A stretch of 64,000 bases of DNA from Heliorestis convoluta. GTDB taxonomy: Bacteria > Bacillota > Desulfitobacteriia > Heliobacteriales > Heliobacteriaceae. The first letter of the stretch is position 1. Each line of letters opens with the position of its first letter. Under the pieces are notes generated by a model. The model was not told where the DNA came from and ran no database searches. It saw only the letters and a program-made list of their open reading frames with translations. A program made the translations under genes and the position numbers. Of the stretch, positions 32,197 to 34,788 are shown in pieces. The stretch covers positions 3,046,001 to 3,110,000 of the forward strand of contig NZ_CP045875.1 in assembly GCF_009649955.1 (NCBI RefSeq). Direction: 5' to 3'.

Positions 32197-33015
32197 TTAA
32201 TCTTCAAACACAACATTATCAATATGCACATTTACAGCACGAACAGAAACACCAAGTCCAGAATCAAGCACCTGCAGCACCCGTTCTTGAATGGCTTTGC
32301 CAAGTTGATTCAAAGGTTGTCCGCCGTAGAGGGTTACGAAAAGATCGACAATGATATCACCGTCATTATAATCTACATCAACCTTCTCTATGGTCGCTAC
32401 ACCTTCAATTGTACCTGCTTGATAGGTAACACTATCAATAAGAGCAGGACTAGAGATGGAAAGGTTACCAAGAGATGTAAAGGTAGGTCTTACAATAGAC
32501 TGTTCTGCCCAGGCTTTTCGCTCTTCACTTTTTTTGCGAAAGAATACTTTGATCGGATTAATCAAACCATCAGACCAGCGCTTTTTCACTTCAAAAGCAG
32601 GTGCAGGTACGACGTGTTTGCCCAGTTGCATACGATGATAACGAGCTTTGCGGATTTCTTTCGTCGATGCTACATCTTCAATGCGAATGATTTCTTTTAT
32701 TTTTGGCAGATCCAGTCGAGTCGCAATTTTTTTGACCATTCCGTCGGATGTACCCAGAATAAGCACACCTTGTGGAGATAGTTCAGCCAGTGCTTTTTTG
32801 GCATCATCCCGATGTTTTTCTTCATGAAACAAAGCTGTCTTAATAGCGCCGATGCGGGTTGCTGCTTTTTTGGCGGATATGCCTGCTAATATCTTATTGC
32901 TTTGTATTAACAGACCATCGTCGATGATGACCTGACAGTGTATGTCGTGGGCCAAACGGATGGCTCTGTGGCTTTTCCCAGTACCACTGGGACCGACGAA
33001 AGCGTATATCTGCAT
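32197..33015 (-). CDS. P-loop NTPase fused to Asp23/Gls24 domain
   Basis: A 272-residue protein. Residues 1-120 are a P-loop domain with Walker A FVGPSGTGKSHRA and VIIDDG and VLILGTSDG segments, like nucleoside/adenylate kinases. The C-terminal part (about 165-272) is an Asp23/Gls24 (YloU, DUF322) domain: GTIEGVATIEKVDVDY, IVDLFVTLYGGQPLNQLG and VRAVNVHIDNVVF. Asp23 proteins are envelope-stress or membrane-associated scaffold proteins; a kinase-like partner on the same chain is unusual. No membrane segment. Function unknown. Confidence 0.85.
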   Translation of the reverse strand: MQIYAFVGPSGTGKSHRAIRLAHDIHCQVIIDDGLLIQSNKILAGISAKKAATRIGAIKTALFHEEKHRDDAKKALAELSPQGVLILGTSDGMVKKIATRLDLPKIKEIIRIEDVASTKEIRKARYHRMQLGKHVVPAPAFEVKKRWSDGLINPIKVFFRKKSEERKAWAEQSIVRPTFTSLGNLSISSPALIDSVTYQAGTIEGVATIEKVDVDYNDGDIIVDLFVTLYGGQPLNQLGKAIQERVLQVLDSGLGVSVRAVNVHIDNVVFED

Positions 33016-33168
33016 CTTATTTCCCTCTCTGATATTTCCTAGTATCTGCTTTTATGATTTTTATATCGACCGGATATGGCGGGTTTAACAGGTAAATAGA
33101 ATAATCATCAAAATGGTTGTGCTCACCCGGGCATGAGAGGTTGGTACGAAAATAGCTACTCTGTGGTG

Positions 33169-33283
33169 GGGTCAGGCGTTATGAATTCCTTCCGAACGGA
33201 CTCATCCCACGCCATAAGCGGCAGCAAGCTGCCGATGGCTGAGGTCTGAAGTCCTCTCTCCAGGAAGTCATAACGCCTGACCC
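33169..33283 (-). ncRNA. Structured hairpin element A (115 bases)
   Basis: Terminal arms GGGTCAGGCGTTATGA (33169-33184) and its exact complement (33268-33283) enclose an inner branched region with GGCAGC/GCTGCC. Its reverse complement aligns along its length with element B at 33412-33527: shared GGACTT, GACCTCAGC, AGCTTGCTG and GCGTGGGA blocks. The outer stems differ in sequence but both pair, which argues for conserved RNA structure or a miniature mobile element. Not a family I can name. Confidence 0.6.
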
Positions 33284-33411
33284 AGGTACACCTTGCTGGT
33301 TGTGACTGCGTTTTGGCTTATTGCAAATACAATAAATAGGCAGTTGCGTATACATAGCAGAAAGATGCGCAAAGCAATGTCAACGGAAGTAACAATCAGC
33401 AAAAACCTTCT

Positions 33412-33527
33412 GGGACTGGGCATCACGCTTTCCGCAGCGGGACTTGGGACCTCAGCGTATCAGTAGCTTGCTGGCGGTAACAGCGTGGGACCAGTCCAGA
33501 GCGGAGGAAAGCGTGATGACCAGTCCC
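33412..33527 (+). ncRNA. Structured hairpin element B (116 bases)
   Basis: Arms of 22 bases (33412-33433 and 33506-33527, beginning GGGACTGGGCATCACGC) pair with one mismatch. An inner GGACTTGG/CCAGTCC stem and a loop with CAGTAGCTTGCTGG follow. Homologous to element A in opposite orientation, 128 bases away. No T tail and no protein frame. Could be a small RNA gene, a MITE-like palindromic element, or part of a larger structured transcript. Confidence 0.6.
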
Positions 33528-34566
33528 CTCTATGAAGTAACCCCAACGTAATCAGGAAACATTGATTTTCATCCTTAGTTTTGCCCGGACATTGTGCCCG
33601 GACAAAAGCAGGATTCTGCTTTCTATTATACCATGTTAGAGCAAATCGTCTATGGCTTAACAAAATTAAAGGAAATTATTTACTATTTAATTAAAAAAGA
33701 AAGTGGAAAAAGAAGGAAAATAATTCCATATGGCGAATATAGTTTTAGAGTTTTTTATGAAGGAAAGGTGATGCTTATGGGCTGAGTTACCGAGGCAATG
33801 GTACTGACTCTGAAATCGATGTTTCCAATGCGTGATGCTGCAACTGTGGTGGTAGCTTTCGTAACGGCAGCACGTTACGGTGCAGAGAGGGATTTGTTCA
33901 GGAGGGCATTGCCAGAGGGGGCGTTATTTCATGCTTCTCTGATAAATTGTTTCGTTGTTGATCCTTTTTGCAGAGCGGAAACCCTGATTGGTAGGGAAAG
34001 CAGAAAGGTGAAGCATTCTCTTAAACCACGGAGGGTGATGGAGCGGGGAAGTAATAGGCCGGCATGAATAGCTAGATTAAGAAAGGAGGAGAAGGTCATA
34101 ACGGGAGGGTAATCGTTTTGTTATGGAATGACATAGAAGCTCGAGCAAATGACAATAAATTTTTTATGATGGTTCATTTTATCAGGTCTAATTCTTATAT
34201 TCTTTTGTCTCATCGGTGCTCACAAGCGCTGTATTAAGAAAAGCGATACCCAATGGGGAACAGCCGATAGACAAGGTGACAAATCATGCAGTCGGCAGCT
34301 GCGTGTATCATAGAGGAGGGTTAGGAGACCGGAAGCTTGGTATGGCTCCGGTCTCTATGTTTGGAGAATACTTTTGTGTTACATAAGCGAGTAATCAGGT
34401 TTTGTTGTATAAAAAATAAAAATCTTTTTGAGTTATCTATCCAAATGAAAGTGCATATATTCCTGTAAGTCTCTTTCCTTCCTGAATGTAAGACAGGCTT
34501 TCGACGCTATCAAAGTTCTAGAGACTTGGGTTGTAACGTAGCGATAGAAGGGACTGAAAAAAAGCG
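33528..34566. other. Gene-poor region with one further structured segment
   Basis: About 1 kb without a gene I can support. It starts with two copies of TGCCCGGACA 13 bases apart (33582 and 33595). An AT-rich stretch follows (33640-33780), then a more GC-rich part. At 34244-34309 GATAC/GTATC encloses GCCGA/TCGGC, and a 9-bp hairpin GAGACCGGA/TCCGGTCTC follows at 34325-34355; these could be a leader RNA with a terminator-like stem, 200 bases before the next gene. Two short frames here (33633-33785, 33798-34067) lack ribosome binding sites and look spurious. Confidence 0.45.
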
Positions 34567-34755: not shown

Positions 34756-34788
34756 GAATATGATGCTTCTGTGTGGAGGAACGGTGCG

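Follow-up and report, generated by a model that had tools for sequence, protein, structure and literature searches.

Rickettsia palindromic elements are 100-150 bp long, occur also in or near RNA genes and are known for insertion inside coding genes, and in the attC sites of integrons GTTRRRY and RYYYAAC boxes are conserved at the base of a variable palindrome. The REP sequences of the GTAG and CGTC superfamilies measure 20-40 bp and carry an unpaired GTAG or CGTC tag, and REP and BIME sequences are intergenic palindromes that often form opposite-orientation pairs and favour unidirectional and convergent contexts downstream of genes (PMC3733652). ERIC, bcr1 and other stem-loop repeat families have been catalogued and are defined by sequence clustering (PMC2267715). 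Hairpins maintained by template switching during replication were described in RNA genes, where multi-base compensatory changes keep the pairing (PMC8794818). Two inverted hairpins of the photosynthetic bacterium Heliorestis convoluta resemble several of these systems, and the family to which they belong is best filed as a new, clade-restricted palindromic interspersed repeat family of unusual build, with a large asymmetric conserved core, rapidly replaced stems that are always paired, and a back-to-back composite arrangement.

The hairpins lie in a window of 64,000 nucleotides, the whole stretch of DNA that was analysed, from the H. convoluta genome (3,218,981 bp in one contig, the size published for H. 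convoluta HH; PMC7143216). A first-pass annotation, made from the letters of the window, had placed element A at 33169-33283 and element B at 33412-33527, mutually inverted and sharing conserved blocks, in a gene-poor region. All of this holds: the reverse complement of A aligns with B over the length of about 115 bases given there, GACCTCAGC, AGCTTGCTG and GCGTGGGA are invariant, and ORF calling makes the region intergenic, with a minus-strand ORF (32197-33015) on one side and the next clear ORF starting at 34771 on the other. According to an inverted-repeat search, the arms of A (33169-33202 and 33250-33283) are 82% complementary and those of B (33412-33438 and 33501-33527) 89%, and A matches B in inverted orientation at 77% (33198-33236 with 33459-33497) and 88% (33238-33254 with 33440-33456). 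On folding, A has z-scores of -7.7/-9.9 and B one of about -5, none of 200 shuffles was as stable as the folds of A and B, and in the window copy the terminal hairpin of the B core has several unpaired positions. A and B belong together in a single repeated unit of about 470 bp, which has the following features.

33114-33587, plus strand: whole unit (A on the minus strand, linker, B on the plus strand, tail), located by BLAST of the 479-nt family consensus; chromosome positions 3079114-3079587.
33114-33140, plus strand: partial upstream copy of tail module C (TGGTTGTGCTCACCCGGGCATGAGAGG), by sequence comparison with module C.
33141-33168, plus strand: left conserved edge, consensus TTAGTACGAAAATAGCTACTTTGTGGTG, which is the 3' flank of hairpin A; alignment of 41 copies.
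33169-33283, minus strand: hairpin A, 115 bp; fold, covariance model score of 103.8 bits, 74 near full-length copies in H. convoluta.
33198-33254, minus strand: core of A, internal loops and terminal hairpin (GGACTTCAGACCTCAGCC...GGCGTGGGATGAGTCC); columns conserved across Heliorestis and Heliobacterium hairpins.
33284-33411, no strand assigned: linker joining the 5' sides of the two hairpins, present in full units.
33412-33527, plus strand: hairpin B, 116 bp; fold, covariance model score of 70.0 bits, 69 near full-length copies.
33440-33497, plus strand: core of B (GGACTTGGGACCTCAGC...CAGCGTGGGACCAGTCC); A/B alignment and covariance model match.
33528-33565, plus strand: family-conserved 3' flank of B (CTCTATGAAGTAACCCCAACGTAATCAGGAAA...); consensus of 41 copies, 59 right ends by pattern search.
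33566-33610, plus strand: tail module C, decayed in the window copy (consensus TTTTCATCNNTGGTTGTGCCCGACCGGGCATG...TTAGTACGAAAATAG); module C matches.

A DNA search of the H. convoluta genome returned at least 40 scored places for A and at least 40 for B, and the two lists interleave. In every full unit A and B are inverted and about 120 bp apart, and copies of the unit are about 88-95% identical. The order in 41 copies is the TTAGTACGAAAATAGCTACTTTGTGGTG left edge, A (minus), linker, B (plus), CTCTATGAAGTAACCCCAACGTAATCAGGAAAA and tail module C; the sequence to the left of the edge is unique in copies that have no upstream tail module. Module C sometimes also stands upstream of the unit or in tandem, and nearly all of its 38 matches in the genome are inside or adjoining units. 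Pattern search found 66 left and the 59 right unit ends, with no hits for the reversed-pattern controls. The covariance model has at least 148 matches, from 150 candidates scored, and among the matches listed there are at least 133 hairpins at 82 places. The units form 88 intergenic clusters (28 in convergent, 40 in tandem and 14 in divergent contexts by simple ORF calling, the rest not assigned) and, at up to about 470 bp each in 3.2 Mb, make up roughly 1% of the genome. Partial units that lack A, lack B or are internally deleted are common, and the deletions at 250556 and 991749 are both joined at the direct repeat CTTGCTGG. Terminators adjoin units at 19 of 175 flanks, compared with 3-6 of about 173 places farther away, an adjacency that is confounded with gene ends and is not taken as evidence of target choice. 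In six units (250574, 435872, 983997, 2700400, 2737646 and 3021591) the A stem is of another type (GGCCTTATTCATTCC), with changes in both arms and in the terminal loop. At L080:764-1270 (about 3035063-3035569), upstream of a probable spoVAD-like gene, a truncated unit is joined to a 16S rRNA 5' fragment of about 190 nt and its leader, an arrangement that resembles a rearrangement product.

A covariance model was built, as the annotation had recommended, from ten hairpins (two-sided changes in 22 of 37 pairs), and the search of the genome and its relatives found further copies: about 17 hairpins in Heliorestis acidaminivorans, five in Heliobacterium chlorum and five in H. mobile. The model has no match in the five other heliobacteria among nine heliobacterial genomes, and of 83 genomes of the same class four are positive and the others have no match. 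Matches to an exact-core scan of 84,980 species, in which the exact pattern would miss A-like variants, are confined to these heliobacteria, and viral contigs yielded none. In H. acidaminivorans the common core occurs in single hairpins whose outer stems are quite different in sequence and still paired. One contig of this 3-Mb genome (C29, 429 kb) carries eight hairpins; at L074:5677-5788, L075 and L077 the 3' half of the hairpin is kept and the 5' half is lost; and at L078:1382-1996 an OLE RNA (523 bits) follows a family hairpin on the same strand at a distance of about 220 nt. Among the outcomes that the annotation had set against its proposal of something undescribed were an absence of further copies and a match to an Rfam family. 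Neither was encountered: Rfam searches at gathering and loose thresholds gave no more than chance-level matches to the element, with no family at the gathering cut-off, and no such family was found described in the literature on repeats in heliobacteria.

The working resemblance of the family is to REP/BIME and to ERIC/bcr1-like repeats. Like REP/BIME, the heliobacterial repeat is intergenic and palindromic, often occurs in inverted pairs and favours unidirectional and convergent contexts downstream of genes, and motifs that may be REP-like adjoin some units; unlike REP, its hairpin is about 107-116 bp long, with a large asymmetric core and stems that turn over. No REP-type GTAG or CGTC tag was evident at the hairpin edges upon inspection of the flanks, and no RAYT gene (PF01797) flanked by the repeat was found in H. 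convoluta, H. acidaminivorans or two Heliobacterium species. The family is therefore not filed as REP, from which it differs in size, tag and RAYT. It shares with ERIC and bcr1 long hairpins, intergenic location, high copy number, clade restriction and a common secondary structure, but the stem sequences of its members are entirely different, with the pairing and the unpaired core preserved, a distinction drawn from descriptions of those families. The Rickettsia palindromic elements, likewise set apart by description, are alike in size and proximity to RNA genes and differ in phylum and sequence. In contrast to integron attC sites, the base of the heliobacterial stem is variable (GGGTCAGG, GGGCCTGG, GACTTGGG, GATTTTAT...) and the apex is conserved.

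The manner in which the stems change is informative about what keeps them paired. The annotation had noted that the outer stems of A and B differ in sequence yet stay paired, and this extends to the whole family: in 23 distinct hairpins 95.2% of cells are paired, versus 35-47% when the partner is slid by one to three columns, although the alignment was fitted to the covariance model and the former figure leans towards it. Changes are two-sided in 25 of 37 pairs of these hairpins. If an RNA helix is selected, its functional strand is expected to accept G-U but not A-C. Within H. convoluta there are 4 G-U and 6 A-C cells in A and 21 and 28 in B, while across species the ratio is 20:11, with many of the 20 G-U cells being one fixed core position, and all these counts are small and come from related copies that are not independent; once that position is subtracted by eye, G-U roughly equals A-C in the outer stems across species. 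Among the distinct changes from one Watson-Crick pair to another in H. convoluta, 12 of 16 are transversions, for which there is no G-U route; if double changes were random, one in three would be a transition-type change. In RNA genes, 61% of instantaneous compensations are of the type reachable through G-U (PMC8794818). Of 46 distinct A copies, 9 carry changes in three stem pairs at once. Taken together, the lack of a G-U excess, the mostly transversion-type compensations and the joint triple changes favour a DNA-level cause, and thus point to stem pairing kept at the level of DNA, because an extruded hairpin is needed, through template switching between the arms, or both, rather than by classical RNA selection. 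The multi-base compensations that preserve pairing are shared with template-switch hairpins, but unlike the RNA genes in which these were described (PMC8794818), the family is a repeat that is dispersed in many copies within a genome and shows no G-U enrichment. Template switching alone would erase a mismatched core, yet the asymmetric core is nearly invariant across two genera and is therefore under selection; it looks like a putative recognition structure, and an RNA role for it is possible. The family separates two usually confounded causes of covariation, selection for RNA pairing and DNA-level maintenance of palindromes, and it warns that strong covariation alone is no proof of a functional RNA. 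Its many copies in one genome, the many paired variants of its stems and the lack of a G-U excess make it a natural experiment on the template-switch model, well suited to testing how DNA hairpins spread and how they stay paired.

For four H. convoluta units (at 2205103, 3166226, 932600 and 2200766) the orthologous gap in H. acidaminivorans has no hairpin. Nine of the ten Heliobacterium copies immediately follow 23S rRNA or a 3' fragment of it, and the spacer after 23S is empty in other rRNA operons of the same genomes; in H. mobile it is filled at L090 and empty at L113, with the left flank GACCTTAATCGCTTTACTTTCC identical to the base. The empty orthologous sites, together with filled and empty rRNA spacers within one genome, lead us to conclude that the element inserts. 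Palindromes unrelated to the family occupy the short post-23S spacer in H. acidaminivorans (L130, L151) and in another heliobacterium (G004; L129, L137), which suggests that this spacer is an insertion-tolerant spot in heliobacterial rRNA operons. Target-site duplications were looked for, as had been proposed, and no clean one was readable, the ends being degenerate and few empty sites available. Five hairpin sites of H. acidaminivorans, out of about 12 loci, correspond to occupied gaps in H. convoluta, with one hairpin each and in the same orientation, and the stems are of each species' own type; by our estimate, with about 85 of an assumed 2,600 gaps occupied, well under one such coincidence is expected among 12 loci. 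Joint occupancy with species-specific stems implies either that these sites are strongly preferred or that older copies were replaced, and vertical inheritance followed by replacement fits as well as fresh insertion.

The annotation had left two readings side by side, a conserved RNA structure and a palindromic mobile element family. The many copies, the empty orthologous sites and the filled and empty rRNA spacers bear out the second, whereas selection on an RNA helix is not supported for the outer stems. We consider it probable that A and B make up a single member of a family of non-autonomous, palindromic, interspersed repeats in Heliobacteriaceae, in which the hairpin core is recognised and the stems are kept at the DNA level. 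The basic element is a hairpin of about 115 bp: its asymmetric conserved core comprises internal loops and a small terminal hairpin, its outer stem of about 12-22 bp changes fast, and its flanks are short and conserved. The H. convoluta composite would have arisen when two such hairpins were fused back to back (A, linker, B) and provided with a REP-like tail, and would then have spread to more than 80 intergenic sites. Copies, boundaries, empty sites, pairing and deletion derivatives are directly observed. The core may be the site that a candidate enzyme recognises when it acts on the hairpin extruded as a single strand; the stems may stay paired because movement requires an extruded hairpin, and replication template switching may copy one stem arm onto the other. 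As passengers, copies in transcribed operons and rRNA spacers would fold in RNA too, where RNase III may cut them.

As for the mover, a RAYT-like transposase that is now missing from H. convoluta is tentatively the likeliest candidate, and the REP-like tails of the units suggest it. Within 150 bp of the 88 units there are 15 occurrences of the motif CACGGGGACGTTTCGTTTG (CACGGGGACGTTTCG-type), compared with a single one in about 181 kb at greater distance. The PF01797 search of the two Heliorestis and two Heliobacterium species revealed no cognate transposase: there are three PF01797 genes in H. acidaminivorans, none of them beside a hairpin, none in the two Heliobacterium species, and a single one, of IS605 type, in H. 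convoluta. An IS605/Y1 mover was rejected, the single H. convoluta gene having no similarity to the unit ends. Beside RAYT-type (PF01797) genes of H. acidaminivorans there are GGCAGGGGGACGTTTCG motifs (L214:2430-2490, L216:1086-1110), and similar ones adjoin H. convoluta units.

A more doubtful proposal is that the hairpin family renews itself: the core would recruit a dedicated putative enzyme or nucleoprotein, new versions would invade occupied sites ("homing") with stems replaced in place, and template switching would keep the pairing at the DNA level. The five gaps that hold a hairpin in the same orientation and with wholly different stems in both Heliorestis species fit such replacement.

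It is unlikely that the family is a conserved structured RNA (an sRNA, an intercistronic processing element or an mRNA stabiliser) whose helix is selected and which was multiplied because it is useful. The strong covariation, the very conserved internal loops and the five shared gaps would agree with this, as would the rRNA-spacer copies, presumably transcribed and in sense orientation, and the many H. acidaminivorans copies on the sense strand between co-directional genes, for example glyA-hairpin-upp and transaldolase-hairpin-glpX (gene names read from translations). Single hairpins between co-directional genes are sense in 13 cases versus 5 antisense (hand count; one-sided p = 0.048), a weak sign of an RNA-level effect. 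However, the stems show no excess of G-U over A-C and mostly transversion-type compensations, 28 of the unit contexts are convergent gaps and 14 are divergent ones, scans found no promoter-like site in the linker (33284-33411) and no terminator, Rfam has no match, and the element is absent from five of nine heliobacterial genomes.

The unit is intergenic, has many copies and carries homologous ends in inverted orientation on either side of a short interior, features that also recall a MITE, i.e., a remnant of a classical DDE transposon with A and B as terminal inverted repeats. This is improbable, as each "end" is a complete 115-bp hairpin that both H. acidaminivorans and Heliobacterium have as a solitary element, the bases at the two extremities of the unit are not mutual inverted repeats (the edges are degenerate and direct-like, TTAGTAC/TTAACAC), no consistent target-site duplication was seen at the few empty sites available, and no larger parent element was seen within about 1.2 kb around units.

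The position of the Heliobacterium copies after 23S rRNA and the one H. convoluta copy fused to a 16S rRNA 5' fragment could be taken to mean that an rRNA-derived or rRNA-processing element, such as a 5S substitute or an intervening sequence, had escaped to other sites, but this is very hard to believe given that many operons of the same genomes have no hairpin and that unrelated palindromes take the post-23S place in other heliobacteria; replacement of 5S, which that place had brought to mind, was rejected, 5S being found elsewhere in the operons and empty spacers existing. A tiny protein gene encoding a TSAVASLLAVTAWDQS-like peptide in the core, one frame of which is open in many copies and similar in A, B and some H. 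acidaminivorans hairpins, was rejected with a negligible chance of being right, since the frame is not preserved among members (terminal-loop length changes and stops break it in many copies, B of the window and several of those in rRNA spacers among them) and changes between copies are paired compensations and not codon-wise. An unusual gene order was also observed at L116:1501-1999 of H. convoluta, where two nearly identical 5S genes flank two tRNAs between the 16S and 23S of one rRNA operon.
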